In this document: one piece after another, positions 20,031 through 37,401 of the stretch | How positions within the stretch are numbered: position 1 is the stretch's first letter | How the letters are laid out: each line of letters begins with the position of its first letter | NCBI GenBank assembly: GCA_014380365.1 | Contig: JACMJZ010000030.1 | Coordinates: forward strand, 1 to 64,000 | Reading direction: 5' to 3' | Origin: Pyrinomonadaceae bacterium | GTDB taxonomy: Bacteria; Acidobacteriota; Blastocatellia; Pyrinomonadales; Pyrinomonadaceae | Length of the DNA: 64,000 nt | Position numbers and translations under genes: made by a program | Notes under the pieces: generated by a model | What the model saw: the letters and a program-made list of their open reading frames with translations, nothing else | Told to the model about the DNA's origin: nothing | Database searches by the model: none

Positions 20031-21545
20031 ATGATTAAGACCTCTTTAATCGCTAGCTTAATGACACTGCCGTCGCCAGACGGCGCCGAATTGAGGGCGC
20101 TGCCTGAGTGTGTGGAATGGCTCGAGGTGCGTGCCGATTTGATCGGGGAGGTTACTGCGGAATGGTTGCGGGATCGTTTCAGTGGGCGGCTCTCGTTTGC
20201 GTTGCGAAGTCGAGAAGAAGGTGGACGCTGTGAGGTTTCGCTCGTCGATAGACACCAACGATTGCGAGCTGTCGCCAGTTCCTACGATCGTGTTGAACTT
20301 GAGGGCGCCAGGGATCTGTCGCCTGCCCTGCTAGCTGAGATTCCCGCTGAGAAGCGTTGCGTATCCTGGCACGGGTCGGCCAGAGACTTATCGCATCTCC
20401 AGGCGCGTTTTGCCGAGTTGTCTGCGGTCCCGGCGGCAATTTATAAGCTTAACACCAGGACTACCAGCCTTGCCGAGGAGTTTGTCCCGTTGTTGCTATT
20501 GCAGTCGCTGGATCGCAAGGATACGATTGCCTACGCCGATGGTCCACTAGGGTTTTGGAACCGTCTTGCAGCTGTCCAACTGGGAGCGCCGGCGGTTTTT
20601 GGACTGGTCAGTAACAATCCAGAAACCCCGCGGGAACCGTCAATCAATAAGCTGATTGAAGACTACGGACTGCCGGAGGTACGGTCGATTAAGGAATTCT
20701 ACGCGATTATCGGAAACCCAGTCTTCCATTCGCTCTCGCCGCGGTTACATAATGCGTCTTACCACGCGACCAACTATCCAGCACTGTTTGTGCCACTTCA
20801 TGTGGCCGACTTCGAAGAATTTTGGCACGATGTCGTCTGTGCGAAAGTCTTCGATTCACTCGGATTCCCTCTTCAGGGCATGACGGTGGCTTCGCCGCAC
20901 AAAGAAGCGGCCTTGCTTAAGGCAAAACTAGTCAGCCCCATGGCCCAACAAGCCGAGTCCGCCAACATTCTGGTACGCAATAACGGCTGGTGGAATGCCG
21001 ACACAACCGATCCGCAAGTGGTCTACATGGCTAATCGAGAGCGAAGCTTTCAGATCGATCACAAGCGCGCCGCAGTTATCGGCTGTGGCGGTGCGGGCCG
21101 GGCCATCGCGGCGGCGCTGGTTCAGTCGGGGGCAGGAGTGACGTTGGTAAACCGTGGAGCGGAACGCGGCCAACACGCCGCCGAACTGCTCGGCTTGCCT
21201 TATCTTCCGTTGCCGGAGTTTGACGCCGATGGTTACGACATCGTGGTAAACGCCACGCCAGTAGGCCGCGATACGGATGAAGTGCCTTTTAATGTTGAGA
21301 GCCTCGGCGATCACGTTTTGGTCATTGACCTCGTCTATGGTTCTCGTCCAACCTCGCTCGTTGGCAGCACGTTGGCGCGTGATCAAACTGTGATAGACGG
21401 CCGCGACGTGTTATTGACGCAGGTACTTCAGCAGTTTCGCATGATGACAGGTCATGAGATGTCATCGGATCTCGCACTCAAGGCGCTGGGCCGCCGAACC
21501 GGCGCACCATACACGGCTGGGCCGGCGCCAGCTGGAAAGCAATAG
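20031..21545 (+). CDS. Bifunctional 3-dehydroquinate dehydratase (type I) / shikimate dehydrogenase
   Basis: The 504-residue fusion catalyses two consecutive shikimate-pathway steps. Residues 1-215 form a type I DHQase barrel, with Glu32/Arg34 in EVRADL, His114 in VSWHGS and the Schiff-base Lys139 in IYKLNT. Residues 222-495 form the shikimate dehydrogenase, with SLSPRLHN (substrate), Lys291 in TVASPHK, Asp327 in ADTTD, and the NADP motif VIGCGGAGRA. AroD-AroE fusions are standard in plants and occur in several bacterial phyla including Chlamydiae. The protein is complete and all catalytic residues are present. Confidence 0.93.
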   Translation: MIKTSLIASLMTLPSPDGAELRALPECVEWLEVRADLIGEVTAEWLRDRFSGRLSFALRSREEGGRCEVSLVDRHQRLRAVASSYDRVELEGARDLSPALLAEIPAEKRCVSWHGSARDLSHLQARFAELSAVPAAIYKLNTRTTSLAEEFVPLLLLQSLDRKDTIAYADGPLGFWNRLAAVQLGAPAVFGLVSNNPETPREPSINKLIEDYGLPEVRSIKEFYAIIGNPVFHSLSPRLHNASYHATNYPALFVPLHVADFEEFWHDVVCAKVFDSLGFPLQGMTVASPHKEAALLKAKLVSPMAQQAESANILVRNNGWWNADTTDPQVVYMANRERSFQIDHKRAAVIGCGGAGRAIAAALVQSGAGVTLVNRGAERGQHAAELLGLPYLPLPEFDADGYDIVVNATPVGRDTDEVPFNVESLGDHVLVIDLVYGSRPTSLVGSTLARDQTVIDGRDVLLTQVLQQFRMMTGHEMSSDLALKALGRRTGAPYTAGPAPAGKQ

Positions 21546-21595: not shown

Positions 21596-22825
21596 ATGGT
21601 AACTGCACACTTTAAAAGCGCCGTCTACACCGTACTTGATCTGAGTGGCGAGCAACAGGAACTGGTCCAACGCGTCAGTTCCCTCGCCCGGGAGAGTTTT
21701 GCCCCGCGCGCTGCCGACTATGACCGGACAGCAACTTTCCCTGCCGAGGACTTTGACGACTTGTTTCGCGCCGGATTACTCGCCCCGTCGATACCAAAAG
21801 AACATGGAGGACTCGGGCTCGGACCCTACACCGGCGACGTCTTCACGCTGTGGATGATGACGAAGGAGATCGCGAAAGCTGATCTGTCCCTGGCTCGTTG
21901 TTGGGAAGGACATGCGAACTCGCTGGTGCTGCTCGATGGAATGGCAGACGACGAACAGAGATCGCGTTGGTTCAAGGGCGTCGTCGAGCGCGGTGAAAAG
22001 TGGGTAGCATGGAGCGGCGAACCACAAGCGCGGAAACCCGGCGAATCGACTCGCTTTGGCACCAGCACAGAAAAAGTAGAGGGTGGTTATGTCATCGATG
22101 GAAACAAGGTGTTTTCAACGAGTGCGGGCGGAGCGCAATGGGCGATTCTTCTGGTCAACACGGCCGGTCCGGGCGGCGTGCGCCACGCGGCGTCTGCTTC
22201 TTTAGATACGCAGTTAATGATGGCTTGTGATCTGTCGGATCCTACGGTCGAGATAGACAGTTCATGGTGGGACCCGATTGGAATGCGGGCCACGGTTAGT
22301 TACCTGGTGAATTTCCGTCGCACCTTTATTCCCGATTCGTGCCTCATCGGTTACCCGGGCCAGTATATTAAGGAGGGATGGCAAACCTGCTTCATTCCGC
22401 ATTACGCGGCGACGTTCCTGGGAGCTGCCGAAGCTGCGTATGACTATGCTTTTGAGTATGTAACGACTCAGAACAAGGTAGACGATCCTTACGTGCAACA
22501 TCACCTGGCGCAGATGTCAGTCAACGTCGAGACTGCCCACTTGTGGCTGCGTCACGTGGCACGACTATGGGAAACCGGAAGGTACCAGGAGGCTCAAATC
22601 GCCGGCAGCCGGGCTCGTCACGTGGTGGAGCATCTTGCGGAAGAGACTGTCAGACACTGTATTAGGGCATGTGGGGCACGCTGTCTAAATCGGCCCAGTG
22701 TTCTGGAACGAATATATCGTGATCTTTCGTTTTACGTCCGACATGACAACGATGACCACATCCTCGCAATGATTGGGAAATCGCTTCTCGGACTGACTCA
22801 CGATCCATCTTTCTACAAACCATAG
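21596..22825 (+). CDS. Acyl-CoA dehydrogenase-fold flavoprotein
   Basis: The 409-residue protein has the three-part acyl-CoA dehydrogenase fold. It has an N-terminal helical domain with LLAPSIPKEHGGLGLG, a middle beta domain with VIDGNKVFSTSAGGAQWAIL, and a C-terminal helical domain ending FYVRHDNDDHILAMIGKSLLG. The C-terminal region resembles the group D flavin monooxygenase (DszC/HpaA-like) branch. No catalytic glutamate of true acyl-CoA dehydrogenases is evident at the usual place. It may therefore be an oxygenase or desaturase on an unknown substrate. It precedes the accessory island by 56 bp on the same strand and could belong to it. Confidence 0.8.
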   Translation: MVTAHFKSAVYTVLDLSGEQQELVQRVSSLARESFAPRAADYDRTATFPAEDFDDLFRAGLLAPSIPKEHGGLGLGPYTGDVFTLWMMTKEIAKADLSLARCWEGHANSLVLLDGMADDEQRSRWFKGVVERGEKWVAWSGEPQARKPGESTRFGTSTEKVEGGYVIDGNKVFSTSAGGAQWAILLVNTAGPGGVRHAASASLDTQLMMACDLSDPTVEIDSSWWDPIGMRATVSYLVNFRRTFIPDSCLIGYPGQYIKEGWQTCFIPHYAATFLGAAEAAYDYAFEYVTTQNKVDDPYVQHHLAQMSVNVETAHLWLRHVARLWETGRYQEAQIAGSRARHVVEHLAEETVRHCIRACGARCLNRPSVLERIYRDLSFYVRHDNDDHILAMIGKSLLGLTHDPSFYKP

Positions 22826-22881: not shown

Positions 22882-24450
22882 ATGGAAAAGGCTTTTCCTC
22901 ATCGTCGCTTCAAACGAACCATCTGGTGGTTGGCGCTCGGCTACTTTCTCTTCTATGCGCCTTACGCTGCGTTCATCAAGATTAGCACCACTGGTCTATG
23001 GCCGGGTGTGAACGGCCCTGTCTCCGGCTTCCGACTGCTGCCTGCGGTGGTCATCTCTACTGCTGTTGTATTGCCTCTCATAGTCTCGCTGGCCGGCTGG
23101 TGGCCTCATGCCGGACGACGTCAAGTATTTGGGATGGTTATCCCGTTCCCTCGCCCGCTGGTCTTCCTTTCGGGTCTGGGCACGGCCATCATCATTGGGA
23201 CGACTACCCTGATTTTCACCTTCCCCGGAGTCTCAATCGTTTTCGCGCTGGTACTGATGCGGGGCGGCGTGCTGATCATGGCTCCCATCGTTGACCGTGT
23301 TTTCAAGCGGCGTGTGCGTTGGTTTTCCTGGGCCGCCTTTGCGGTGGTCGTACCCGCAATCATGATCGCCTTCGCTGATGTCAAGAACTACCGGATGTCC
23401 ACGGTCACCGTGATGCTCATCATCGCTTACCTCTCGGGCTACCTCCTGAGGATTCCCTGTGCCACCAAGCTGGCGAAGTCGGAAGATAGGGTGACTACTT
23501 ACCGCTACTTCGTTGAAGAGCAGATGGTTGCGATTGTTCTTTTGGTAGTAATCCCTGCCGTCTTTGCCGTGATAGGCAAGGGCGAGATCATGATGGAATT
23601 GCGCCACGGCTTTACCGGTTTCTTTTCCAGCAGCCTCACGCTTCCGGCGCTTATCATCGGGGCGTTCTACGCCTGTCTCTATTGCTTCGGCACTCTCATC
23701 TACCTCGACTGTCGCGAAAATACCTATTGTATTCCCCTGAATCGCGGATCTAGTTTGCTGGCCGGTTTCGCCGCGTCATACGCGCTCGCTGTATTCCTTG
23801 GCCAGAAGCCGCCAAGCGTGGCGCAGCTCGGCAGTGCGGGTCTGCTCGTCATCGCGCTTCTCCTCCTCTCACCTTTCCATCACGTGCTGGAGCATGCTCT
23901 CGACAGAGTTAGACTCTCATTCGCCAAAGCCTACCGAACGCTTCTGGATACCGAGTCTGGTATGGATCGGCAGCGACTATTTCTCTTCGTGTGCAGCGGC
24001 AACACGTGCCGGTCGCCCATGGCTGCGGCAATTGCCAACGCGGAGATAGCATCGCGTTTGCGGATACCTTTTGATGCCCTGCGAACAGTCAACGCGCGAG
24101 CTCTAAGCGCCGGAGTTGCTGCGAGGGCCGGCGCGCCGCTGACTCCCGAAGCGCAGGATGTGTTGCGCTCCATGAATGTTCCGGTGCGATCTCACGCCGC
24201 GCGGAATTTGACACCTGAGTTGGCCGACCAGGCAGACATGATCTTCTGTATGACGAGTGCTCAACGCAAAGCCGTCATAGAAATGATCCCTGCGGTGGCC
24301 GGCAAGACTTATTGCCTGGACGCGCAAGGCGACATTGATGACCCAATCGGAAAAGGCATGCCGGCTTACCTAAGCTGCGCTGGCCGCATTCGCGACTTAG
24401 TGCGACTCCGATTCGACCAACTCAGCCCGCCGGTGGGACTGCAAATCTGA
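22882..24450 (+). CDS. Multispanning membrane protein fused to a low-molecular-weight protein tyrosine phosphatase
   Basis: The 522-residue protein joins two unrelated parts. Residues 1 to about 345 contain nine or ten hydrophobic helices, loosely like a drug/metabolite (EamA-type) transporter. Residues about 362-522 are a full LMW-PTP domain. Its P-loop is FVCSGNTCRSPMA with nucleophile Cys371, and the general-acid loop is DIDDPIG near Asp487. The phosphatase would face the cytoplasm if the last helix exits inward. I prefer the ATG at 22882, which has an AAGGG site eight bases upstream, over the GTG at 22873. The SelO-like gene follows by 32 bp, suggesting that the two act together. LMW-PTPs often regulate polysaccharide export kinases. 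Confidence 0.85.
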   Translation: MEKAFPHRRFKRTIWWLALGYFLFYAPYAAFIKISTTGLWPGVNGPVSGFRLLPAVVISTAVVLPLIVSLAGWWPHAGRRQVFGMVIPFPRPLVFLSGLGTAIIIGTTTLIFTFPGVSIVFALVLMRGGVLIMAPIVDRVFKRRVRWFSWAAFAVVVPAIMIAFADVKNYRMSTVTVMLIIAYLSGYLLRIPCATKLAKSEDRVTTYRYFVEEQMVAIVLLVVIPAVFAVIGKGEIMMELRHGFTGFFSSSLTLPALIIGAFYACLYCFGTLIYLDCRENTYCIPLNRGSSLLAGFAASYALAVFLGQKPPSVAQLGSAGLLVIALLLLSPFHHVLEHALDRVRLSFAKAYRTLLDTESGMDRQRLFLFVCSGNTCRSPMAAAIANAEIASRLRIPFDALRTVNARALSAGVAARAGAPLTPEAQDVLRSMNVPVRSHAARNLTPELADQADMIFCMTSAQRKAVIEMIPAVAGKTYCLDAQGDIDDPIGKGMPAYLSCAGRIRDLVRLRFDQLSPPVGLQI

Positions 24451-24482: not shown

Positions 24483-26759
24483 TTGCCCAGCAGCATCATT
24501 AAAAACAGGACTGCGGTTGAGAGTACTCCGCGACGCGCCAGCGCAAGAACCGCCTCGTGGCCCGGCCGCGCTCAATGGAATGAATATCAACGCGCGCGCA
24601 CCGCCACCCGATTTCGAAGATTAGGAATCGAACCCGGACCAGCCGGTGAATGCGGTGTACTGGCGTCAGTGGCGTTGAAGGTGCTGGGGCGCGATTCATT
24701 TGCGGAGTTTGCCGCGGTCAGGGCGGCTGGCAAAGTGATCTGGTGCAACTTCGACCTGGCTCGCCAACTGGGTTTTGCGGTTCCACACTCAAATCAGTTA
24801 ACGGCACAATTTCTCGATCAACTGCTATCGCTTTCGTTGCGGGCCCTGGCGTCGGGGGAGGACAGCCAGGGGTTGGAAACGATAACCATGTACGCCGACA
24901 AGTACGGAGGAGATGGTGTTCGTCCGGCGCTGGGGGCCGGGCGCGCCGGATTTCTTTCGCATGGAAATCTTTACGTTAAAGGCATTGGTTTCACGCCGCT
25001 CTTCAAACACAACGACGCGGACGACTTCGCCCATTCACACGGCGGCGTTCATCTGGACGACTGCCTGGTCGAAGCTGTGTTTGGCGAAGTAAATGAGAAT
25101 CTCTTCTATCACGGCTCTAGCAGAATTCTGGCCGTCATAGATCAGGAAAAATTTGTAACTCCTCCGAGCGGTCGTCGAATTCCGATTGGAATCGCAGTTC
25201 GCACCGGCTCACAACTCCGCCCGGCGCACCTGTTAACCCGACTGCGAAGCAGACATTCTCAGCTTGAGAAGTTCATCGATATCACCCGCGTCTCTGGGCA
25301 GCTTGTTACACGAACAGACCCCTCAACGCGGGTTGAATCGCCGGACGTCAAAGCCACCATGCTCCGGATTGTCGATGACCACGCGCAGACTGCCGCCGAA
25401 GCTTTCCGCTGGCGGATGATTCACGGCGCCCTGAGCGCTTCGAACATGGAGATCAGCGGAGCAATGCTGGATCTGCCAACCCAATCGACGCAGCCGCGAA
25501 CGGCGCCAGTTTGGCTGCTCAAGTATGCCGACTCCATTTTTGGATCTGAACACATCGCGCGCGCGATGCACCTGGCCCCGCTTTACCGCAAGCTGCTGCG
25601 CAACGTCCCGGAAACGGCCTGGGGCAAACTTAACCTTGGCCCGATTAACTTCCGTGAAGAGATGACTGCTGCCTACATCAAGCACCTTCAAGTCCAACTG
25701 CTGAGCGCGGCGGGTCTAAAGAAGGATGTTGCGCGGAGAGTTCAATCCAATCATGCGCAACTCGCCAGTTCATTCACAGAACTCATCAAGGAGATGTCGG
25801 CCCTCAAGAATCGTGGCGCTCTGTGCGTGGCGAGAGCAACAGTCGAGCAAGTCGCGGTACTTGATGTCTTCAATCTTCTAGGTGCCATTCCCGGACCATT
25901 CTTCGCAAATCCCGCAGACGATCACCGGGCGGCCATCCGGCAGTCTCTCAAACCAATCTTCCGTGGAAATCGGTTTCACGTCGCGAAGAAGCAAACGGCG
26001 GTTAATGCGCTCATTGACAGATTTGCGAGTTTGTATCGAGAGTTGATGACTGTCTGTCGCTCTTACGTGAACGAGTTCTATGGTGAGCCGGAAAAGATGT
26101 CTGCTTCCATAGCGGCGCGTGCGGCTTTCGAGAACCGGCCTCTCGAATGTCTTTATTCCCATAGCCTCTTTAGTGAACTACGCCGAGCGATTCGGTTGTA
26201 CAAATCTACTGGAGACGCTGAAGTAATTCGTAGCGTGTTGGACGAATGCATTACGGCTTCAATGCGGAGCGTCGATGCGCTGTTGAACCAGGGAGATTCT
26301 CGGCTTCTCGGCAGCGACGGCATAGAGCTTGAGATGCGAACGATCGACGGAGTTAACTATTCCGTAAAGGCCTGGAACGACGCAAAGCAAACGCGCCTGC
26401 TGCATGTCGGCATTCCAGTGGAACGCGACGGCAATCACTACTCGACTGCCGTTCCGGGCTTGCGACACCTGACGAAACGACATATTCAATCGCTCCGCTA
26501 TCGTTTTACGACTGACGGGTGGAAGAACTTTGGCGAGGCCGGCGCTCGTCTGACGAAAGATCAGCGAAACGGCCTTGCCATTGATTTTCACCTGCCCTGT
26601 ACCGTTTCTTCCGTGGGACGACTTGAAGGTTATTGCCGCATGAGCCACGCCCGGAAAAGTAAAGTGAGAAATCCGGAAGAATGTCTGCGCAGATACACCT
26701 TTGCGATTCCAGACCGGCACGAGCTGATTAAGTTGGTAGCCGAGCCTTGCCTTAATTGA
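24483..26759 (+). CDS. Divergent SelO-like protein (protein adenylyltransferase / pseudokinase fold)
   Basis: The 758-residue protein resembles SelO (YdiU, UPF0061), which transfers AMP to protein hydroxyl groups using an inverted ATP orientation. Counterparts of SelO elements appear in order. LYVKGIGFTP (Lys166) matches its LKGAGLTP. HLDDCLVEAVFGEV matches the RESLASEAM helix. VRTGSQLRPA matches RVAPSHLRFG. HGALSASNMEISG (314-326, with Asn321) and the following LDLP acid match HGVMNTDNMSILG and its DYGP. SelO usually has about 480-500 residues, so some 200 C-terminal residues are extra. The start is a TTG at 24483 and is uncertain. Activity is inferred. It lies between a tyrosine phosphatase fusion and a glycosyltransferase in one tight run. 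Confidence 0.68.
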   Translation: MPSSIIKNRTAVESTPRRASARTASWPGRAQWNEYQRARTATRFRRLGIEPGPAGECGVLASVALKVLGRDSFAEFAAVRAAGKVIWCNFDLARQLGFAVPHSNQLTAQFLDQLLSLSLRALASGEDSQGLETITMYADKYGGDGVRPALGAGRAGFLSHGNLYVKGIGFTPLFKHNDADDFAHSHGGVHLDDCLVEAVFGEVNENLFYHGSSRILAVIDQEKFVTPPSGRRIPIGIAVRTGSQLRPAHLLTRLRSRHSQLEKFIDITRVSGQLVTRTDPSTRVESPDVKATMLRIVDDHAQTAAEAFRWRMIHGALSASNMEISGAMLDLPTQSTQPRTAPVWLLKYADSIFGSEHIARAMHLAPLYRKLLRNVPETAWGKLNLGPINFREEMTAAYIKHLQVQLLSAAGLKKDVARRVQSNHAQLASSFTELIKEMSALKNRGALCVARATVEQVAVLDVFNLLGAIPGPFFANPADDHRAAIRQSLKPIFRGNRFHVAKKQTAVNALIDRFASLYRELMTVCRSYVNEFYGEPEKMSASIAARAAFENRPLECLYSHSLFSELRRAIRLYKSTGDAEVIRSVLDECITASMRSVDALLNQGDSRLLGSDGIELEMRTIDGVNYSVKAWNDAKQTRLLHVGIPVERDGNHYSTAVPGLRHLTKRHIQSLRYRFTTDGWKNFGEAGARLTKDQRNGLAIDFHLPCTVSSVGRLEGYCRMSHARKSKVRNPEECLRRYTFAIPDRHELIKLVAEPCLN

Positions 26760-26781: not shown

Positions 26782-27732
26782 ATGAAGCTAATCATATCTC
26801 AATTAGAAGCCTTGAGAGGCTATGTCAGTCGAGAGTTCTACTATGTGATGACGGAGTTGATGGCATCTTATGACTGGAAACAGATTGACACGTATGAATT
26901 ATGGAGAGCGCCAGGAAGCTTAACGAGCAAGCTGCTGAACAACTTTGGAGAGCTTCCGGATGCCATCTTATTTTGGGAAGGTTATGAGTTTGTTTGTGCC
27001 CATACCAGGGAGATTGGTGGGCTGGATTGTAAGAAGTTTATTTTGGCCGACGATCTACATTGCCAGACTGAGGAAATGAGAGAGATGAAGTCAGTCAGCT
27101 TCGACTTATGCGACACGGTGCTTTCAACCTACGGCTATGTTTGGGATAGGTTCTACCAGGAATTCCAGGGCGCCAAGAAGGTTGTATGGGTCCCACACTC
27201 AGCCTCTCCCGATTTCCTGTTGCCGTACAATTCTAATCCTGAAAATGCGATCTTCCTTAGCGGGGCCATCTCATGGCACTACCCTCTGCGTCAACAAGTA
27301 AAGTCGCTGTATGACCAAGGCACGTACGCTATCGCCTATCACGGCCACCCGGGATATCACTGCCGATATGATTACAAAGAAAACGAAGATATAGGCCTCG
27401 GGTATGCCAAAAGAATTAACAGCTATCGTGCAGGTTTTACCGATAGCGGGTTATATGAATACGTGCTGGCGAAATACTTCGAAATGCCGGCTGCAGGAGC
27501 GCTCCTCTTTGCCGATGATACTGTCAGTGGGCCATTGCGGTCACTCGGTTTCATAGAAAATGAGCACTACCTTCCGGTTTCAGAGGACAACCTCGAGGCG
27601 CGAATCCTATATGTTCTGGACGAAAGCAATCACGACGAACTCGATGAGATTAGACGAAGAGGGCAAGCGCTGGTGTGGGAAAAGCATAAAACCAGCGACC
27701 GAGCGAGGCAGATAGATGAGGCCTGTAACTAA
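26782..27732 (+). CDS. GT-B glycosyltransferase (CgeB-like, Glyco_trans_1_2 C-terminus)
   Basis: The 316-residue protein has a variable N-terminal Rossmann half and a typical C-terminal nucleotide-sugar half. The pattern there is KYFEMPAAGALLF, LGFIENEHYLPV, and a final helix with RGQALVWEKHKTSDRARQ. This order is that of spore-maturation CgeB-type glycosyltransferases. It probably transfers a sugar from a nucleotide donor in the cytoplasm. It starts 22 bp after the SelO-like gene, with AGGAG ten bases before the ATG. Donor and acceptor are unknown. Confidence 0.8.
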   Translation: MKLIISQLEALRGYVSREFYYVMTELMASYDWKQIDTYELWRAPGSLTSKLLNNFGELPDAILFWEGYEFVCAHTREIGGLDCKKFILADDLHCQTEEMREMKSVSFDLCDTVLSTYGYVWDRFYQEFQGAKKVVWVPHSASPDFLLPYNSNPENAIFLSGAISWHYPLRQQVKSLYDQGTYAIAYHGHPGYHCRYDYKENEDIGLGYAKRINSYRAGFTDSGLYEYVLAKYFEMPAAGALLFADDTVSGPLRSLGFIENEHYLPVSEDNLEARILYVLDESNHDELDEIRRRGQALVWEKHKTSDRARQIDEACN

Positions 27733-27773
27733 AGTAATTCGTTGAGCTGGACGCCTTCAGTTCTGGAGACTCT

Positions 27774-28616
27774 ATGTGGTCAATCGCTATCTATGTTGGT
27801 GAGTCACCTTTCTGTCTGAAGCCAGCTCCGGGCATCGTGAACCCCGTGCTGACGCGTGATAACGTCAGCGACGTCGCGGCTAAATTCGTAGCCGATCCTT
27901 TTATGCACAAGGTAGGCGGATGCTGGCACATGTTTTTTGAAGTTATGAATCAGCAGACTCAGAAAGGTGAGATTGGACTAGCCACCAGCGTTGACGGTCT
28001 GGATTGGGCGTATCAGCAAATCGTTCTTGCCGAAGCATTCCACCTTTCGTACCCGTACGTCTTCGAACGGAAGAACGAACAATACATGATTCCGGAAACT
28101 CGTCGGGCGGAGGCGGTTCGATTGTACAAGGCAGATCCCTTTCCCACACACTGGTCTTTTGTCGGCTCGCTGATCGAGGGAAACTGTGCCGATCCTTCCA
28201 TCTTTCGTTTTTGGGATAGATGGTGGATGTTTACCTGTTCGGCTCCCTTCGAGCACGACGTGCTCCGATTATACTTTGCCGATGACTTGATGGGGCCATG
28301 GATCGAACATCCGTCTAGCCCGGTCGTTGAAAGTGACAAACGAAGCGCCCGACCCGCGGGCCGGGTATTAGTCTCTGACAACGGCGTCATCCGCTTCGCT
28401 CAGGATTGCGTGAACCGCTATGGCAATCACGTCAGAGCGTTTGAGATTCTTGAATTGACTACGACGAGCTATGCGGAGCGTGAACATCCTGGCAGTCCGA
28501 TTTTGAAAGCTAGCGGCGGAGGTTGGAATGCGGTAGGCATGCACCACATTGATGCCCATCCTCAGCCTCAAGGCGGCTGGATAGCTTGTGTTGATGGACT
28601 CGACGGTGCGGAGTAA
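27774..28616 (+). CDS. Five-bladed beta-propeller protein (GH43/GINT1-like fold)
   Basis: The 280-residue protein has repeated propeller strands: ADPFMHKVGGCWHMFFEV, IGLATSVDGLDW, YPYVFERKNEQYMIPET, CADPSIFRFWDRWWMF. This pattern is seen in GH32/43-like propellers and in the N-terminal module of plant GINT1 sphingolipid glycosyltransferases. In bacteria such proteins accompany sugar-transfer or formyl-transfer genes. It may bind or process a carbohydrate. The catalytic acids of true GH43 enzymes were not assigned. It follows the GT-B gene by 41 bp. Confidence 0.65.
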   Translation: MWSIAIYVGESPFCLKPAPGIVNPVLTRDNVSDVAAKFVADPFMHKVGGCWHMFFEVMNQQTQKGEIGLATSVDGLDWAYQQIVLAEAFHLSYPYVFERKNEQYMIPETRRAEAVRLYKADPFPTHWSFVGSLIEGNCADPSIFRFWDRWWMFTCSAPFEHDVLRLYFADDLMGPWIEHPSSPVVESDKRSARPAGRVLVSDNGVIRFAQDCVNRYGNHVRAFEILELTTTSYAEREHPGSPILKASGGGWNAVGMHHIDAHPQPQGGWIACVDGLDGAE

Positions 28617-28660
28617 ACCTGGAGCTTAGACACTGCGTCAGCCATCGGCGGGCCTGCTGA

Positions 28661-28770
28661 AGCTTTCCTTTGCGACTCTTTGCGCTCACTTTGCGGCCTT
28701 TGCGGTTAAGCTGTTTGTTTTAGCAAAGTACGCGAAGAACTCGCAAAGTAACGCAAAGGAATGCAGCTTC
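28661..28770. repeat. Palindromic GCAAAG repeat, copy C
   Basis: The arms AGCTTTCCTTTGCG and ACGCAAAGGAATGCAGCT frame inner pairs of TTTGCG and CGCAAAG motifs. The element lies between the propeller gene and the GT4 gene. It divides the otherwise tight plus-strand run, so it may mark a transcription or RNA-processing boundary. Confidence 0.85.
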
Positions 28771-28819
28771 AATCCAGCAATCTCTAATTGGAATTCATCG
28801 CTATCCGCTGACGAATCAT

Positions 28820-29797
28820 ATGCGGCTCTTACTTTCATCAGATCATAGATATCCGGCGTTTGAGAAGCTCGGAAGTGGTCGTCACCCGAAACTCTTCCCT
28901 TCCGGTTCAGCCTATCTCGTTCACGACTTGCTGGCGCGAGGTTTGGCCGAGCTTGGTCACGACGTGTTCTATCTCCTGCGGGAAGGTGCGGCCCTTCCCT
29001 TACCCTCCGGGGTCACGCTGGTCTCCGAACCCATCCCGGATGCCGATATTCTCCACACGGTCGCCTACCACGACGAAGACTTATCTGCAGTGAAACAGTC
29101 CGGCCGCAAGCCCTGGGTTACAACCTGCCACCTGGATCTCGAAGCGCGCGGAAAGGAACGGAGTCGGACGACAGACAATTGGATATTCGTTTCCCAGACG
29201 CTCGCCAATCTGCACGGCCGCCGGCGTTTTGTTTTCAATGGCATAGATCCGGAGGAGTACATCTATTCGGAATCAAAGGACGACTACTTCGTGTTCATGT
29301 CGGCGATGGACTGGGGCACGGAGAAAGGGTTGGAAACGGCGCTGGCCCTGTCCGCGGAGATTGGTTTTGAGTTGGTAGTTGCGGGCACGGCGAGGGACTA
29401 CGAAATCATAAACCGGGTGCAGGCGATGTGCGAGAAAGTGAAAGCCCGATATGTCGGCGATGTGAGAGGTACCGAGAAGGCAGAACTGCTCGCGGGTGCC
29501 AGAGGGTTTCTGTTTCCTACGAAAGTCAATGAAGCGTTTGGACTCGGCATGGTCGAAGCGATGATGTCTGGCACGCCAGTCATCTGCAGTGACAAAGGCG
29601 CCTGCCCGGAGCTGGTCTCTCCAGAGGTTGGTTTCGTTTGCAGAAACGACGGCGACTATGTGGCGGCGATCCACAAGTCCGCGAACATTTCTTCTGCAGC
29701 CTGTCGGGACAAAGCGATGAAGGAGTTTCACTACCTCAGAATGGCAGCAGACTACGTCGTCGAATATGAGAAAGAAATCGCGAAAAATGGGAAATAA
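28820..29797 (+). CDS. Family 4-type glycosyltransferase (GT-B)
   Basis: The 325-residue protein has an N-terminal acceptor domain that begins MRLLLSSDHRYPAFEK and includes GSAYLVHDLLARGLAELGHDV. Its C-terminal donor domain carries the E-x7-E motif, EAFGLGMVEAM, followed by SGTPVICSDKGACPELV. These features are diagnostic of retaining GT4 enzymes. At about 325 residues it is somewhat short for the family but complete in both halves. It overlaps the next gene, so both are translated together. Donor and acceptor are unknown. Confidence 0.85.
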   Translation: MRLLLSSDHRYPAFEKLGSGRHPKLFPSGSAYLVHDLLARGLAELGHDVFYLLREGAALPLPSGVTLVSEPIPDADILHTVAYHDEDLSAVKQSGRKPWVTTCHLDLEARGKERSRTTDNWIFVSQTLANLHGRRRFVFNGIDPEEYIYSESKDDYFVFMSAMDWGTEKGLETALALSAEIGFELVVAGTARDYEIINRVQAMCEKVKARYVGDVRGTEKAELLAGARGFLFPTKVNEAFGLGMVEAMMSGTPVICSDKGACPELVSPEVGFVCRNDGDYVAAIHKSANISSAACRDKAMKEFHYLRMAADYVVEYEKEIAKNGK

Positions 29798-30596
29798 GGA
29801 ACGCGGATCACCGAAGACAAATCTTGCCCGCCCGCTAACGCAGGCGGATCTGACCAAACCCACGGGAAACGAGATCATCCAGGGTTTGTGGGTTGGCCCG
29901 GAGCTTTCGGTGATGGAGCAACTCTCGATTTCGTCTTTCCTTGCAAACGGGCACGACTATCACCTTTATGTTTACGACGACGTCAAACATGTCCCCGCGG
30001 GCACGACGGTGAAAGACGCCAACTCGATCTTGCCCGCATCGGATATTTTCCAATACACAGGCCGCCCCAGCTACGCTGGCTTTTCCAACTTCTTTCGTTA
30101 CAAGCTGCTGCTTGAGCGCGGCGGCTGGTGGGCCGATACCGACACCGTATGCCTCAAGCCTTTCGACTTTCCCGAAGAGTTTGTCTTCTCCAGCGAGATT
30201 AGCAAAGGACTCGAGGTCGTAAATTGCGGCGCGGTCAAGGTTCCCGCCGGGAGCGACGCAATGGCTTACGCCTGGGAAGTTTGCCGGACTAAGAACCCTG
30301 AGCAGTTAGTTTGGGGAGAAACCGGCCCCCGCCTGATGGCTGAAGCGGTCCGTAAGTTTTCCCTGGAAAAGTACAAGCAGGCGCATCAGGTCTTTTGTCC
30401 GCTTGGTTTCTTCGAGTGGCACAAACTACTAGAACCGCAACAAGCCCTGGCGCTTGGCGACCTGAATTACGCAATTCATCTGTGGAATGACAAGTGGCGA
30501 GCCGCTGGGCAAGATAAGAATGCCCAGTACCCGGAAGACTGCCTTTACGAGAAACTGAAGCGACGATATATCAGGACCGGGAGCGGTGGCGGGTAA
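29766..30596 (+). CDS. DXD-containing glycosyltransferase (GT32 / capsule type)
   Basis: The 276-residue protein carries FRYKLLLERGGWWADTDTVCLKPF, the DXD signature of Och1/GT32-like sugar transferases also found in capsule loci. The preceding IIQGLWVGPELSVMEQLSISSFLANGH matches the start of that domain. Two starts are possible: the ATG at 29766, overlapping the upstream gene by 32 bases, and the ATG at 29787, overlapping by 11. The second is closer to the domain. The gene ends the plus-strand run and faces a convergent GT4 gene 40 bp away. Confidence 0.82.
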   Translation: MRKKSRKMGNKERGSPKTNLARPLTQADLTKPTGNEIIQGLWVGPELSVMEQLSISSFLANGHDYHLYVYDDVKHVPAGTTVKDANSILPASDIFQYTGRPSYAGFSNFFRYKLLLERGGWWADTDTVCLKPFDFPEEFVFSSEISKGLEVVNCGAVKVPAGSDAMAYAWEVCRTKNPEQLVWGETGPRLMAEAVRKFSLEKYKQAHQVFCPLGFFEWHKLLEPQQALALGDLNYAIHLWNDKWRAAGQDKNAQYPEDCLYEKLKRRYIRTGSGGG

Positions 30597-30636
30597 AACC
30601 TCAATGTCATTCCGACTTTCGGCTGCCGCCGCAGCT

Positions 30637-31782
30637 TCACCGGCGCCCGGCCACTTTGTCGAGTAGCGCATCCCATTTCTCGAGCGCTGACTCGATCGAA
30701 AAGCGCGTCAGCACCTCGGGAGCTCGCGCCGCCAGAGCTTGGCGCGCGGTGTCATCAGCCATTAGCGATGCGAGTGCAGACGCCAGCGCAGGCGTGCTGT
30801 TCGTGTTTACGATCACGCCGTCTACGCCATCGCGCACTAGCGCGCGAACCGGCGCCCCCGCGTCCATGGCCACAACCGGAACACCACATGCCAGTGCTTC
30901 CCAGATCGCATTGCCAAAACCTTCTACCCACGACGCTGACACAAAAAGATCGGCGCCGTTGAGGATGGTGTATGGGGCGTTTTCAAACCAGTGGAGGTGG
31001 ATACGGCCGGGCGCCAACTCGGAAATGTAACGAGCGATAAAGTCACGCATCGGCCCATCGCCGTGCATTTCAAGATCCCACTCCGGGAAGTCGCCGGCGA
31101 TCCTCGCAAAAGCACGCACTAGAAGTTCAGGCCGCTTCTCCCGGCCCAGCCGAGCGAGCGTTACGAGGCGACGTCGCGTTCCATTACACCTGCTGCTCAT
31201 CGGCGGCGGCGCAATTAGCGGATTGTGGATGGCGCATGCCGACGCACCGTGGCGTGCAAGCCATTCCGCGATGCTCGGTTGAGGCGCGACGACCGCCCGA
31301 GCGCGGCGGCGGTAAAGGGCCTTTCGTACGCTCTGCCACTCACCGATCGAGACACGCGCTGAGTCCGTTTGCTCGCAGGCAATAACCGGCACGCCTGTCT
31401 CGTACATGGCGGCCAGTACACGGACGTTTGTCATTTCGAGAATGGGAATAACTACATCGGGCTCGGTTTTGAGAATCCCGTAGCGGAGCATTGCGATAAG
31501 GCCAAGTTGCCTGGTCAGAGAGATGCAGCCGTCCCGAATTAAACCGCGTACTACAGGCGCAATCGAGTCGCGGTTCACCTCAACCGCACGTGGCAGTCGA
31601 GGTTTGCCAATGTCATGGTGTTTGACCTGAGGGTCGACAGAGTAAGCCGGGGGCCTTGACCCTTGTGACGTCGTAAGAATCGTGACTTGCCAACCGCGTT
31701 TCACCCAGGCGTTTGCCAGGTTCACGCAAACGCGCTCTGCCCCTCCGCCGTTCAGAGTGCCAATTACGAGCGTGATACGCAT
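30637..31782 (-). CDS. Family 4 glycosyltransferase
   Basis: The 381-residue GT-B enzyme has a clear nucleotide-sugar transferase layout. The N-terminal half starts MRITLVIGTLNGGGAERVCVNLA. The linker to the C-terminal half carries LVTLARLGREKRPELLVRAF. The donor site contains VSASWVEGFGNAIWEALACGVPVVAMDAGAP. It is the last gene of the minus-strand run of the island and most resembles polysaccharide GalNAc/Gal transferases. The acceptor is unknown. Confidence 0.9.
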   Translation of the reverse strand: MRITLVIGTLNGGGAERVCVNLANAWVKRGWQVTILTTSQGSRPPAYSVDPQVKHHDIGKPRLPRAVEVNRDSIAPVVRGLIRDGCISLTRQLGLIAMLRYGILKTEPDVVIPILEMTNVRVLAAMYETGVPVIACEQTDSARVSIGEWQSVRKALYRRRARAVVAPQPSIAEWLARHGASACAIHNPLIAPPPMSSRCNGTRRRLVTLARLGREKRPELLVRAFARIAGDFPEWDLEMHGDGPMRDFIARYISELAPGRIHLHWFENAPYTILNGADLFVSASWVEGFGNAIWEALACGVPVVAMDAGAPVRALVRDGVDGVIVNTNSTPALASALASLMADDTARQALAARAPEVLTRFSIESALEKWDALLDKVAGRR

Positions 31783-31814: not shown

Positions 31815-32216
31815 TCAGTCAGATGGATAGGCGGCGATGACGTCGAGCATTACCAGCGCGCCGGCCGGCAAAGCCAGCGCTGCAAACGCGGTGCGGGCCG
31901 GCAAGGGTGTCACGCCAAGTCCCGGAAGCCAGGCAGCGTAGAGTTGGTCCACAGCTTTGAAATCCTTGATGTCGGCGAGCAGCAAAACGACCTTGACGAT
32001 ATCCGCCGGCGAGCAGCCGGCTGCGTTTAGAATCGCGTCGACATTGGACAAGATGCGGCGCGTCTGGGCCTCAAGTCCTTCCTCCAATTTTCCGGTATCC
32101 GGATCACGACCCGTTTGGCCGGTGAGGAAAACGAGATCACCGGTACGGACAGCCTGCGAGTGTGTGCCAATCGAGTGAGGCGCACCGTTGGTTGCGATCT
32201 TTATCTTGTTGACCAT
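31815..32216 (-). CDS. RidA family protein (YjgF/YER057c/UK114)
   Basis: The 133-residue protein has the RidA fold, a homotrimer that hydrolyses reactive enamine/imine intermediates released by PLP enzymes. GDLVFLTGQTGRDPDTGKL and the PARTAFAALALPAGALV segment, with its conserved arginine, are typical. Family members in biosynthetic clusters sometimes act as cluster-specific deaminases or cyclisation helpers. It sits 32 bp after a GT4 gene and 36 bp before a Rossmann-type gene. No PLP enzyme is visible in the island, so a specialised role is possible. Confidence 0.88.
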   Translation of the reverse strand: MVNKIKIATNGAPHSIGTHSQAVRTGDLVFLTGQTGRDPDTGKLEEGLEAQTRRILSNVDAILNAAGCSPADIVKVVLLLADIKDFKAVDQLYAAWLPGLGVTPLPARTAFAALALPAGALVMLDVIAAYPSD

Positions 32217-32252
32217 AGTAAATGTTCTTGTAGAGCCCGCCTGTTACTAAAG

Positions 32253-33059
32253 TTATTGATCCAGACGTTCAGCCTTAAGCGGAATTTCAAATTTAACCTT
32301 CACTGGTCCCCCACTGAGTGGCGCCAGATCCAGAAGCTGCGGTTGTTCCGGATGAATGATCTGCAACACGACCACGTTAGTGGGATTGGCAAATTCCAGA
32401 TCAAAATAGTGAAATTGGGTGATGTTTGAGGCATAGATCCAGAGGTTATTCTGGCTGCGTATCCACTTACTAAAACTGTCGCTTTCCATCGGCTCGGTAC
32501 GGATCTCCAGAGGGACTTCGGTCAGGAGCTTCCTGGTGAGATCGAAGTGTTCGAAGGCGTATTGCCAGCTCTGTTCGTACGGCCGTTTCGTGGAGCCGCG
32601 TTCGCGAGGCAGGTTACCCTCCTGCTTCATGCGAATATTTTCGCGCACGAATTCCTCCTGTTCGTTTTCAGCCGCATAGTTGCCGGTTGTCAGCCGATCG
32701 AGAAAATCCCTTGCGTCACGGCTGATGGTAAAAGCCCTTCGGATCAGGCGGAAGTAAGTAATCGCGGTCGGATTAATATCGAAGATGGTGATGCGTTTAG
32801 GCTTCCACAGTGGGATCAGGTTGAGGCCATACAAACCACCGACGACGCTAATCAGGTGTATGTCCTCGCGCCTCTCGGGAGCCACACCTTCGTAGTGAGC
32901 ACGAAACTCCGCAAACTCGCCGAAGGATCCATCCTGAGCGCCGTCGTCTGTTCCGTAGAAGACATTTTCGGGATGGTCATGATACATCTCACGATTGAAT
33001 GCTCGAGGTGCTTGTGTTGTCACTGTTCCTCTTTCCACTTTGGGTGTGTCTACGTGCAT
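32253..33059 (-). CDS. Rossmann-fold protein, possible class I methyltransferase, unknown
   Basis: The 268-residue protein has one recognisable core: HLISVVGGLYGLNLIPLWKP, then ITIFDINPTAITYFRLI. This is a glycine-rich loop followed by an acidic residue at the end of strand 2, as in SAM-binding Rossmann folds. The remainder, with many charged and aromatic residues, resembles no family I know. The ATG at 33059 lacks a ribosome-binding site. The frame stays open for 18 codons upstream into the decayed methyltransferase, so the true start might be the ATG of MYHDHPENVF, 23 codons downstream. Confidence 0.5.
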   Translation of the reverse strand: MHVDTPKVERGTVTTQAPRAFNREMYHDHPENVFYGTDDGAQDGSFGEFAEFRAHYEGVAPERREDIHLISVVGGLYGLNLIPLWKPKRITIFDINPTAITYFRLIRRAFTISRDARDFLDRLTTGNYAAENEQEEFVRENIRMKQEGNLPRERGSTKRPYEQSWQYAFEHFDLTRKLLTEVPLEIRTEPMESDSFSKWIRSQNNLWIYASNITQFHYFDLEFANPTNVVVLQIIHPEQPQLLDLAPLSGGPVKVKFEIPLKAERLDQ

Positions 33060-33062
33060 TAA

Positions 33063-33389
33063 GACGGGAACCTGCGCGCGCTCGGTCCGTGCGTGGTTCC
33101 CGAACAGGTTGAGTTACATTTCATGTTCTGCCGCCCTATACCGACTGTAGTGAACAAAATGCGCCTGCGGAAAAGCACGGCGTTCACTGCTCGATCACTT
33201 CTTCGATTAGATCGACGCACCAGTAGTCGCCATGTCGACGTTGTCGCCAGCGCTCACCAAAAACGTACCAACATTGCCGCCGAAATCGAGTACTTTACTT
33301 CCCTTCCAAACCGGACGTCCGACCACTTGATCGAAGTAAAAAAATTGCGTTACCCGAGTTGAGATAAGATTCCACATAGGCGAACCCAC
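33063..33389 (-). pseudogene. Decayed class I SAM-dependent methyltransferase
   Basis: The first frame (33389-33207) gives a good methyltransferase start, with KVLDFGGNVGTFLVSAG as motif I. Reading then continues in a second frame as HGDYWCVDLIEEVIEQ (motif II) and in a third as RRAFPQAHFVHYSRYRAAEHEM. That is followed by a TAA at 33114-33116 and LNLFGNHARTERAQ. Two frameshifts and one stop in about 330 bases leave no intact product. About two thirds of a normal enzyme is also missing. It sits inside the island between two intact genes. Confidence 0.78.
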
Positions 33390-33453
33390 CCAAAAACTAA
33401 ATCAGAAGCCGGTGAAAATAGTGCGAGGTAAAGTCAGTGCAACTTTTGTCCGC

Positions 33454-34299
33454 TCAAACCTCAATGGTCCAAGGCACGGGCTTTGGAGGGACATTGTGAC
33501 GTTTGGCCCATCGTTCCAGTGCCCAAGGTAATGTGTCGATGTCGCGATAACCGCCCAGGAGCTGCCACGTAACGGGGCCTGCATTTGCACATTTTCGGTG
33601 GTCAGGCGGTTCGAGGTAGATCTCCGGCTTCATCCACCGGTAGGAATAACCGTACATGAACACTTTCGATACTCGAGTACTTAAGTTAGGGGCGGCAGTA
33701 TGAAAAATGCGATTCTCAAATAGGAAGGCATCCCCGGCCTTGAGTTTCAGATCGCAAACCTCAACGTCCTCCGGATCGATCTTACCCTTCCGCAATTTGA
33801 GAGGTTCCGTTCTTAGGTGGGACCCGCGGGCCAGCACCGTCATTCCGGAGTTGGGCTCCGGAAAATCGGTCAGGCAGTAACAGATCTTGATGCCCACTCG
33901 CGGCAAGGCCTCGTGCCCCAGATCGCGCGGGATACGAATGTCACGATGCCACCCGCGCCGGAACGAGGCGACATCGGGACGTGACGGCCGTTTATAAAGT
34001 AGAGAGGTTGAGTGGAGATGGATGTTGGGGCTAAGTAGTTGGACTACTAATGGCACAGTCGACGAATTGGACACCAAATCGAAGAGAGCAGGTTCTTTGA
34101 GTAGGCCTGGCCGCAAATCGAGGTGATTGTACTCGGGTCGGTTTGGAACCTCCGGCTTTTTGAGAAACGTTTCCGCCAGACGATCGCCGGCTTCGGTCAA
34201 ACGGCCCACGGTCTCTTGATCAAGGGCATCGCGCACGACGAGAAAACCGTCTTCGTCAAACGACTGCCGCTGCTCCGGTCTTAGAGGGACGAAATCCAT
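33454..34299 (-). CDS. Phytanoyl-CoA dioxygenase (PhyH)-like Fe(II)/2-oxoglutarate oxygenase
   Basis: The 281-residue protein has the PhyH-type double-stranded beta helix. It begins FDEDGFLVVRDALDQETVGRL. The iron site is His/Asp in GWHRDI, with the distal His in FHTAAPNLSTRVS, whose arginine should hold 2-oxoglutarate. SGMTVLARGSHLR is another family hallmark. An Asp is present in the HxD motif, so hydroxylation is more likely than halogenation. It is one of four such oxygenases in the minus-strand run. The sialyltransferase-like gene lies 13 bp upstream. Confidence 0.88.
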   Translation of the reverse strand: MDFVPLRPEQRQSFDEDGFLVVRDALDQETVGRLTEAGDRLAETFLKKPEVPNRPEYNHLDLRPGLLKEPALFDLVSNSSTVPLVVQLLSPNIHLHSTSLLYKRPSRPDVASFRRGWHRDIRIPRDLGHEALPRVGIKICYCLTDFPEPNSGMTVLARGSHLRTEPLKLRKGKIDPEDVEVCDLKLKAGDAFLFENRIFHTAAPNLSTRVSKVFMYGYSYRWMKPEIYLEPPDHRKCANAGPVTWQLLGGYRDIDTLPWALERWAKRHNVPPKPVPWTIEV

Positions 34300-34312
34300 A
34301 TTGATGTTTCTT

Positions 34313-34960
34313 TCAGATCGCCATTGCCTGGGCGCCTAATACCATTTCAATGTCTGCATAGGGAAAACACTTCACCCGCGATCTGGGATTGCAGTTATAT
34401 ACTTTCGGTATCCAATCCTGACGACCAAGATAATCAATGCTCTCGAATGAAACGCTGTAGAGGTTCTCTTCGTTGCGCGACTCGTCATATTCGTCGAAGT
34501 GGCTCCCGTTGTCTTCGTAGTAGTCATAACCCAGGAGGAAAATGGGATTCCCACCCAGCAGCATCGCGGCATGAAGGGCGGTGCATCCGGCGCCGCCTCC
34601 AAACCAGCCATCGCTAAATGATCTGCCGACCTTTCTTGAAAGCGTGGTCATGTTGCCGCTCAATTCAAAGGTGTCGACGTTACGCTGGATGATAAAGATG
34701 TTGTCATGCGTTTGCGTCGGTCCGGCGCCTGGTCCGGCCAGGATCATGCCGTTGTAATTACGCAAGGCCTCCGCGTGAGTTATGTGGGCTGTTAGATCAA
34801 CGAAGTGCATTATCGACGGGTGATAGTGTTCAATGACCCTGTTTATGCCGATGGTGATCTTGCCGTTGAGCCTCGTAAAATCGAAGCCTCGAAGACTGGT
34901 TCCGGTTGACACCACAAATATGGGGAACCCTTCATAAAGGTTGTCTAGCTTGTGCGCCAT
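34313..34960 (-). CDS. DUF115 / sialyltransferase-like protein
   Basis: The 215-residue protein begins LYEGFPIFVVSTGTSLRGFDF and continues KITIGINRVIEHY. This 'functional site plus glycine/serine loop' is shared by DUF115 (MAF flagellin-modification) proteins and GT42-like sialyltransferases. FGGGAGCTALHAAMLLGGNPIFLLGYDYY fits the second nucleotide-binding half. It may transfer an acidic sugar from a CMP-donor or similar. Its reading frame is complete. The neighbours on both sides are oxygenase and glycosyltransferase genes. Confidence 0.68.
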   Translation of the reverse strand: MAHKLDNLYEGFPIFVVSTGTSLRGFDFTRLNGKITIGINRVIEHYHPSIMHFVDLTAHITHAEALRNYNGMILAGPGAGPTQTHDNIFIIQRNVDTFELSGNMTTLSRKVGRSFSDGWFGGGAGCTALHAAMLLGGNPIFLLGYDYYEDNGSHFDEYDESRNEENLYSVSFESIDYLGRQDWIPKVYNCNPRSRVKCFPYADIEMVLGAQAMAI

Positions 34961-34998
34961 GCGTCAAATCGCGTTTGCTTGTTCCCGTACGCGCTCCG

Positions 34999-35763
34999 TC
35001 ACGGATTCATTGTGTTACTGCGATCCATTTGGATCCTTCCCTGACTGTCAAAGATGTGGAGTCTATCGCCGGCTCCCACCGCGTGAACCACCAGATTACG
35101 AAGCACGTCTTCATTGCCCTGGAAGTTCTCGCTCCGGCCAATTAAGGTTATCGGCTCACTACTCATTTCCTCAGATGGCCAGTATTCCGGGTTGATACTT
35201 GGCCGATAGCGAATTCCGTCTTTGTAACACCACATGAGTTCGTGAATGACATCCATCAATCGCTGGTGTTCTTTGAAGAAGGAAGTCTTGCCCACGTAGA
35301 AACCGCCAGCGACCTTGCAGGCGTTTGCTACGCGGATGTCCCGCTGTATGAGTTGCCGCACCAGAGCGCCAGAAAGCTGAAAGTTAATATCGTTGTTGCC
35401 TTTCCTGGGTCCAAAAAGGACCACGTCAGGAAAAGCTGCAATGCTCTCCTCGACATAGTCTATCCAATCGGGCTCAAGATGAATGTCAGCGTCAAGCTTA
35501 ATGAAATAAGGAGCCGTGGCGAGTCGATTGATATCTCGAATGGAAAACAGCTCGAAGTTGTGGTAACCATCGGGACTATGCCGCGGGGTGTGCAGCACAT
35601 CATAAAGCCCGTCCAGTTGGTCCAGGTCGGTGTCGGACAGAAAAGAGGACGCGAGATGCACCCTGCCGTAGGGTTGTAGTTTCCCGAGGAGCGGTTTCAA
35701 TAAGTGGACGTGTTGGGAACCGCCACAAATGAAAACGTCAAATAGTTGTTCGTAGTCTTTCAC
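34999..35763 (-). CDS. GT-A-type glycosyltransferase-like protein
   Basis: The 254-residue protein has APYFIKLDADIHLEPDWIDYVEES, a DXD motif inside a GT-A-like fold with hydrophobic strands on both sides. Its C-terminal region has the acidic/aromatic character of family 2-like enzymes, but it is not a typical GT2 start. The start is a GTG at 35763. The acceptor is unknown. It lies 19 bp after a second DXD-like protein gene, so the two may act in sequence. Confidence 0.65.
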   Translation of the reverse strand: MKDYEQLFDVFICGGSQHVHLLKPLLGKLQPYGRVHLASSFLSDTDLDQLDGLYDVLHTPRHSPDGYHNFELFSIRDINRLATAPYFIKLDADIHLEPDWIDYVEESIAAFPDVVLFGPRKGNNDINFQLSGALVRQLIQRDIRVANACKVAGGFYVGKTSFFKEHQRLMDVIHELMWCYKDGIRYRPSINPEYWPSEEMSSEPITLIGRSENFQGNEDVLRNLVVHAVGAGDRLHIFDSQGRIQMDRSNTMNP

Positions 35764-35782
35764 GAGTGTGCCTGGACCAACT

Positions 35783-36481: not shown

Positions 36482-36510
36482 ACCCTAAACCTCCGACAAT
36501 CAAGACAGGT

Positions 36511-36939: not shown

Positions 36940-36970
36940 GATGAAATTCGGCCCAGCGCGATCCTAAAGG

Positions 36971-37387: not shown

Positions 37388-37401
37388 TTTCCAGTTCCCT
37401 T

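Follow-up and report, generated by a model that had tools for sequence, protein, structure and literature searches.

The predicted gene at 22882-24450 of the window (the whole 64,000-nucleotide stretch of Pyrinomonadaceae DNA analysed here) joins a membrane transporter-like half to an LMW tyrosine phosphatase (LMW-PTP). It raises the question of whether the two halves truly form one protein and, if so, what a carrier might do with a phosphatase on its C-terminus.

A single gene encodes ten transmembrane helices and a complete phosphatase

The frame was unbroken on the forward strand from the ATG at 22882 to the stop ending at 24450, the earliest possible start of the frame being a GTG at 22873. 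Its product comprised ten transmembrane helices joined by a short linker to a complete LMW-PTP domain. Because the ATG lay 56 bases past the stop of an acyl-CoA dehydrogenase (ACAD)-like gene, and the next frame could start no earlier than 32 bases beyond the stop, the gene stands in an operon-like row. The features of the gene were as follows.

22882..24450 (+): DMT-LMW-PTP fusion gene, 522 aa plus stop, identified by ORF, Pfam and fused homologues
22882..23910 (+): membrane half, residues 1-343, predicted ten-helix DMT-superfamily fold, no Pfam or NCBIfam family
23911..23967 (+): linker, residues 344-362, into which a helix of the full-length model extends as far as residue 358 or so; length variable among homologues
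23974..24429 (+): LMW-PTP domain, with the boundaries of the match of profile A5
23992..24015 (+): catalytic P-loop C371-S-G-N-T-C-R377-S378
24340..24345 (+): D487-P488, presumed general-acid motif, followed by Ile (Phe/Tyr in YwlE and 4egs)

At the curated cut-off LMWPc (PF01451) was the sole Pfam domain in the protein, covering residues 367-507 (E 1.5e-21; 77.5 bits against a cut-off of 23.2). An earlier note, made from the sequence, had described nine or ten helices preceding a full phosphatase domain with an intact Cys371-x5-Arg-Ser and a late DP motif. Indeed, AlphaFold models showed ten helices of membrane length plus short extra ones, and C371, R377-S378 and D487-P488 were all present. 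That two genes had been wrongly joined by assembly or annotation has a negligible probability: the sole point in its favour was that the clade includes two unfused members, and an identical junction was found in 10 distinct genes from separate records, so that homologues do not break there, as the earlier note had considered they might. This common junction ruled out an assembly join, and 22882-24450 is a genuine transporter-phosphatase fusion, neither chance nor the join of one assembly.

Distribution of the fusion

The membrane half was found in 10 of 145 related genomes (the window's own included) and was in frame with the phosphatase in nine of these, the exception being G018. The eight other fused proteins were 44-72% identical to that of the window. 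Relatives were also sought in the genome_contigs collection by two peptide patterns taken from A2, an alignment of mostly fused sequences, in a scan that finds only relatives keeping those peptides. The best 80 of the 99 relatives returned were retained; nine of them had the phosphatase motif in the same frame and 71 did not. The two sets overlap, since nine relatives from the 145-genome search recur among the 80 loci; each counted once, the fused genes numbered 10 with that of the window, and those with a taxon name (n = 9) were all from Acidobacteriota. Of the unfused loci, three (L023, L026 and L069) were from Acidobacteriota and the others included Myxococcota, Neomarinimicrobiota and further phyla; in the observed loci from phyla other than Acidobacteriota the transporter stood alone. 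Within the phylum the membrane half is patchy, as it was present in 9 genomes of a 396-genome sample, two of them (the window's own and G043) fused by frame and locus.

A 40-row tree, built from the window, 37 loci of the 80 and two additional ones, placed the 10 fused rows in one clade of 12 (support 97/99) together with the unfused L023 and L026. The fusion label required three changes on this tree, which are best explained by one gain and two losses (in L023 and L026), though three gains fit equally. Beyond the last matched residue L023 had 46 residues and L026 had 62; the number was ≤30 in 59 of the 69 other unfused loci and 32-56 in the remaining ten. The longer tails of L023 and L026 are suggestive of linker relics.

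The membrane half is predicted to have a DMT-type fold

No convincing Pfam or NCBIfam family was found for the membrane half, either alone or among 36 homologues. Weak single-member matches were scattered among the 36, including one to TIGR00950, a DMT model (E 0.029), and EamA, TPT, NST, LicB and similar Pfam families were not matched by any of the 36 members at E ≤ 0.1, although sequence models of this kind can miss distant relatives. A PDB profile search with the family gave no credible relative, the best being two ice-structuring proteins (E 0.65 and 0.91).

The AlphaFold model of the membrane half made with the 36 homologues had a pLDDT of 90.3 and a pTM of 0.89. In comparisons by Foldseek and VIA-align, the best 21 VIA rows were all DMT proteins (Z 14.7-21.5), and the next row scored 7.5. 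The top row was a triose-phosphate/phosphate translocator (Z 21.5; 292 aligned residues; rmsd 4.2 Å), tied with LicB (21.1), and further DMT matches included CMP-sialic acid and other nucleotide-sugar carriers, SLC35B1, PfCRT and 5i20. The predicted ten-helix fold of the membrane half is thus that of the DMT superfamily, to which the triose-phosphate/phosphate translocator, the choline importer LicB, the nucleotide-sugar transporters and 5i20 belong, whereas sequence identity was just 8-14% in the 21 best rows. On these models the membrane half is predicted to be a DMT-fold carrier. The fold itself gives no clue to the cargo, because the best matches (a phosphate translocator, a choline importer and nucleotide-sugar carriers) differ in substrate.

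The earlier note had left the side of the phosphatase to topology prediction. Lysines and arginines in the loops of the membrane half, counted with three flanking residues included, numbered 17 predicted inside versus 6 outside, and 6 more were present in the 35 residues following the last helix. Owing to this excess, the phosphatase should be cytoplasmic, a prediction made by the positive-inside count alone.

The phosphatase active site

The P-loop C, R and S were invariant in all ten rows of A5, the profile of the ten fused phosphatase domains, as was Thr at P-loop position 5 (CSGNT). The D-P motif was present in nine rows, with E-P in L031. It was followed by I in five rows, A in three (once as E-P-A), M in one and V in one, whereas YwlE, PtpB and 4egs carry F or Y at this position; the aromatic was absent from all ten fused phosphatases.

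LMW-PTPs of established substrate act mostly on proteins, and YwlE and PtpB are single-domain, soluble enzymes. The nearest solved relatives of the fused phosphatase were 4egs and the arginine phosphatases of the YwlE type, the match to 4etn having a Z of 22.8 over 143 aligned residues (rmsd 1.6 Å). This best fold match and the P-loop Thr are common to the fused phosphatase and the LMW-PTP-type arginine phosphatases YwlE/PtpB, but the fused enzyme lacks the aromatic after DP and is attached to a transporter. Thr at position 5 of the P-loop favours phospho-arginine over phospho-tyrosine, according to excerpts of one paper (PMC8001253). Both this Thr and the loss of the aromatic argue against a usual phosphotyrosine substrate; since the Thr points to phospho-arginine while the aromatic after D-P is missing, neither phospho-tyrosine nor the plain YwlE substrate can be assumed.

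Other LMWPc proteins were encoded in the same genomes. A separate gene with the P-loop CTGNSARS, read as ArsC-like from the motif alone, was present in six of the 10 genomes; the window's own genome had one other LMWPc protein, with the P-loop CTANRCRS, as did G058.

Gene neighbourhood

The genes surrounding the fusion are listed below.

20031..21545 (+): second, cluster-bound fused 3-dehydroquinate dehydratase/shikimate dehydrogenase (aroDE), scoring lower than the other copy
21596..22825 (+): ACAD-like flavoenzyme, SfnB/DszC-like, below curated cut-offs; conserved directly upstream
24483..26759 (+): 758-aa protein that matched nothing in Pfam, NCBIfam or the PDB, kept in three related clusters (51-57% identity)
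within 26782..31782: glycosyltransferase-type genes at 26782, 28820 and 29766 (+) and at 30637 (-)
27774 (+): GINT1_N-domain protein
31815..42951 (-): probable rest of the cluster, with RidA-like, PhyH, TauD and other 2-oxoglutarate-oxygenase-type proteins, an FkbM-type methyltransferase and unknowns

Two of the PhyH proteins resembled chlorinating enzymes, far below the cut-off. Among the 80 loci, whose flanks extended up to 8 kb with several cut by contig ends, the ACAD gene lay directly upstream in 9, the aroDE copy was present in 7 and luciferase-like monooxygenases in 8. The latter were alkanesulfonate-monooxygenase-like, below the cut-off, and the scanned genes of the window gave no luciferase-like match.

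Two Shikimate_dh_N matches were present in 7 of the 10 genomes, with the weaker one on the cluster contig in six; in G003 it was on another contig, and the cluster contig begins inside ACAD. G045 and G043 had one match each and G018 had none. G043 (locus L033) carried the fusion without aroDE-ACAD. In the fused L033 and the unfused L023, an opine-type dehydrogenase, a shared-family gene and an FAD-NAD(P)-binding gene were found near the DMT gene instead.

L023:1617-4892 and L033:2770-7033: opine-type dehydrogenase region near the DMT gene

Because L033 and L023 have these other neighbours, the cargo need not be identical everywhere.

Two further observations concern neighbouring genes. A P-loop protein family (Walker A GRPASGKS) occurred near the unfused DMT gene, adjoining it or within three genes, in 11 of the 80 loci, seven of the 11 being from Neomarinimicrobiota; an example is L034:9119-9841, without Pfam or NCBIfam match, and a PDB profile search with the family gave none at 0.1. 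This protein could conceivably be a kinase-like partner. In the window, 43744-49965 (-) encoded a 2073-aa protein with no Pfam match, whose sole PDB match was MnxG (9bxa_A, E 2.8e-79) and which is possibly a giant manganese-oxidase-like protein.

The same phosphatase on an ABC importer

The profile of the ten phosphatase domains gave matches in 13 of 162 class genomes at E ≤ 1e-20. Nine were the known DMT fusions, two were stand-alone LMW-PTPs with the P-loop CTGNICRS (G118 and G103), one was cut by a contig end (G011) and one, in G013, had another partner. The gene order in G013 (locus L150) was aroDE, the ACAD-like gene, a WtpA-like binding protein, a WtpB/ModB-like permease and a ModC-like ATPase-TOBE-PTP, the TOBE between ATPase and PTP being assigned from how the ModC model aligned.

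L150:3990-10360: ABC importer of the tungstate/molybdate type whose ATPase bears the same PTP, occupying the DMT-PTP slot

The ATPase-PTP protein of 552 aa was encoded in one frame on a stretch free of N, and the NCBIfam ModC model stopped before its PTP part. The catalytic C and R were also kept in this copy, and S occupied the position after D-P. The importer resembles the WtpABC/ModABC tungstate and molybdate importers and replaces the DMT half while bearing the same PTP, but its components scored below the curated cut-offs (WtpA 145.9 of 355; ModB 148.9 of 182.6; ModC short by 0.35 bit). Compared with the cluster of the window, identity was 65% for aroDE, 84% for ACAD, 66 and 63% for glycosyltransferases, 76% for the RidA-like protein and 80% for an unknown protein. 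A DMT protein of the window's family was not found in G013.

The upstream ACAD was present at E ≤ 1e-90 in nine of the 162 class genomes, and the next gene was the DMT-PTP fusion in eight and the ABC importer with PTP in G013. None of the 11 other class genomes with a ModC relative (E ≤ 1e-60) had a PTP of the fused clade at E ≤ 1e-20. The swap was seen in one genome, G013, which comprises 910 contigs with contamination given as 6%; its gene order is unaffected by binning, because the contig itself bears the cluster genes. Since the same PTP sits on the ABC ATPase of this cluster, the phosphatase seems to belong to the pathway slot and not to one transporter.

In a tree of 15 PTP domains the two stand-alone proteins were set apart (100/100), and most inner branches were without resolution. 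With the ABC-borne PTP and G352 held outside the DMT-borne group the AU p was 0.195, and the tree placed the ABC copy neither firmly in nor out. G352 was one more PTP relative from the phylum sample (L152:1-543, E 6e-45); it has the P-loop CGGNVSRS, begins at a contig end and lies in a genome from another family within the phylum.

Molybdate or tungstate was considered as the DMT cargo but not adopted. A ModB permease above the curated cut-off was encoded elsewhere in 7 of 12 genomes tested, including those of the window and G013, so that ordinary molybdate uptake does not depend on the cluster transporter there; with the threshold relaxed to E ≤ 1e-20 ModB relatives were present in 12/12 genomes, but in 14/14 controls too. 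For 113 proteins encoded near unfused DMT genes, no Mo/W-cofactor family was found in the 25 Pfam families listed of 100; the proteins came from 36 of the 80 loci, selected for spread, and excluded five P-loop neighbours.

Conflicting histories of the two halves

In the membrane half the window was nearest to L022 (78% or 82% in two comparisons), and in the phosphatase it was nearest to L025 (69%, versus 62% for L022). The phosphatase data rejected a grouping of the window with L022 (AU p 0.001), and the membrane data rejected one with L025 (p 1e-60); the groupings were chosen with the identities already known, which makes these p-values optimistic, but the conflict is still large. From SPxHH to the phosphatase motif the linker spanned 40 residues in the window and 34 in L025 but 68-72 in L022, L029 and L033, with both short and long forms among the others, and these lengths fit differing histories of the halves. 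The conflict between the trees of 22882-23910 and 23974-24429 points to an exchange of the phosphatase module among related clusters.

Comparison with arsenate reductase fusions

The arsenate reductase that occurs fused to aquaporin or ACR3 is of the LMW-PTP-fold, thioredoxin-dependent type. The statement of the earlier note that LMW-PTPs are normally single-domain was too strong: excerpts of a review (PMC12838822) describe arsenate reductase domains fused to aquaporin in actinobacteria and to ACR3 in mycobacteria, calling such arsenic transporter-enzyme fusions quite unique, and a part of another paper (PMC4531530) describes a thioredoxin-dependent arsenate reductase of the phosphotyrosine-phosphatase type. 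These proteins are the nearest precedent, since in them a membrane channel or transporter carries an enzyme producing its substrate on site; the window fusion differs in its DMT fold, its phosphatase-type active site and the presence of the enzyme also on an ABC importer.

An LMW-PTP-fold ArsC joined to an arsenite exporter would follow this plan of membrane channel or transporter plus enzyme outlined in the review excerpts (PMC12838822), but it is highly improbable as an explanation of the window fusion. The protein scored 27.6 of 215 bits against PRK13530 and 18.8 of 174.3 against TIGR02691, its P-loop CSGNT(C/S)RS differs from the CTGNSARS of the separate ArsC-like genes, and the DMT-fold membrane half had no ACR3 or MIP Pfam match. 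Model scores, P-loop and membrane fold together led to the rejection of an arsenate reductase identity. The scanned neighbours of the fusion included no arsenic gene.

No report of a DMT protein or an ABC ATPase fused to an LMW-PTP was found in the open-licence PMC literature, judged from titles and the beginnings of abstracts. Transporter-arsenate reductase fusions are already known, and the exchange of the carrier under a constant phosphatase is the part that a specialist would not expect.

A model for the fusion and its alternatives

The fusion protein would sit in the inner membrane as a DMT-fold carrier and bear an LMW-PTP-type phosphatase, on the cytoplasmic side, at its C-terminus. The carrier would serve an accessory cluster containing the aroDE copy, the ACAD-like flavoenzyme, glycosyltransferases and 2-oxoglutarate oxygenases, with luciferase-like monooxygenases in relatives. 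The solute moved would most likely be anionic. By acting at the cytoplasmic mouth on this solute, or on a phosphorylated form of it, the phosphatase would couple transport in space to the loss of a phosphate-like group. Binding-protein-dependent ABC systems are importers, and uptake would be favoured over export because one relative fills the slot with a tungstate/molybdate-type ABC importer carrying the same phosphatase. We hold tentatively to this model of a carrier for an anionic solute with a phosphatase acting on that solute at the cytoplasmic mouth, in which the fusion, its conservation, the catalytic residues, the gene context and the swap are observed, the folds of both halves and the cytoplasmic side are predicted, and solute, direction and coupling are all inferred. 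Against coupling, L023 and L026 keep the transporter without the phosphatase, L026 while retaining aroDE-ACAD, and coupling would thus be dispensable there. Further points against the model are the single genome behind the swap, the L033 fusion that lacks aroDE-ACAD, and the mostly protein substrates of other LMW-PTPs.

Close behind this model, though rather doubtful in itself, comes a regulatory protein phosphatase that strips phospho-Arg or phospho-Tyr from a protein, such as the transporter itself or the cluster enzymes, and so tunes transport. It agrees with 4egs and the protein-arginine phosphatase YwlE being the closest solved relatives, with the P-loop Thr of the type associated with phospho-Arg in excerpts of PMC8001253 in 10/10 A5 rows, and with an add-on that was lost from L023 and L026 while the transporter was kept; the non-aromatic residue after D-P (I, A, M, V or, in the ABC-borne PTP, S), where YwlE, PtpB and 4egs have Y/F, argues against it. 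No protein-arginine kinase match was found in the 10 genomes, which says little since the control search was equally silent. An exporter with a finishing step, whose PTP would strip the cluster product of a protecting phosphate on the inner side before the DMT half exports it, is near the idea of the earlier note and suits a cluster that looks biosynthetic; excerpts of PMC5719457 describe a DMT protein, CntI, that exports a cluster product, pseudopaline, elsewhere. It is unlikely, because the system in the G013 slot includes a periplasmic binding protein, as importers characteristically do. Of the membrane-coupled dephosphorylation proposed in that note, perhaps of an exporter or of a lipid or sugar phosphate, the true transporter-phosphatase fusion stands, the exporter and these substrates staying conjectural, and the swap for an ABC importer in G013 speaks for uptake instead of export.

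A more specific version of the uptake model, less probable than the regulatory phosphatase but somewhat more so than the exporter, is that the LMW-PTP is a portable, pathway-bound module grafted onto whichever transporter occupies the slot, in most genomes a DMT carrier and in one an oxyanion-type ABC importer. At the cytoplasmic mouth it would couple uptake to the removal of a phosphate-like group, so that an anionic or oxyanion solute would be enzymatically trapped or sensed by a phosphatase active site forming part of its transporter.

Fusions of a transporter with a substrate-making enzyme are few; here the enzyme is a phosphatase and the carrier comes from a DMT-fold family for which Pfam has no model. 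The presence of the same enzyme on an unrelated importer at the same place in the cluster makes the question of the solute concrete, as whatever both carry is a candidate substrate, and the fusion gives this nameless DMT family its first functional handle.
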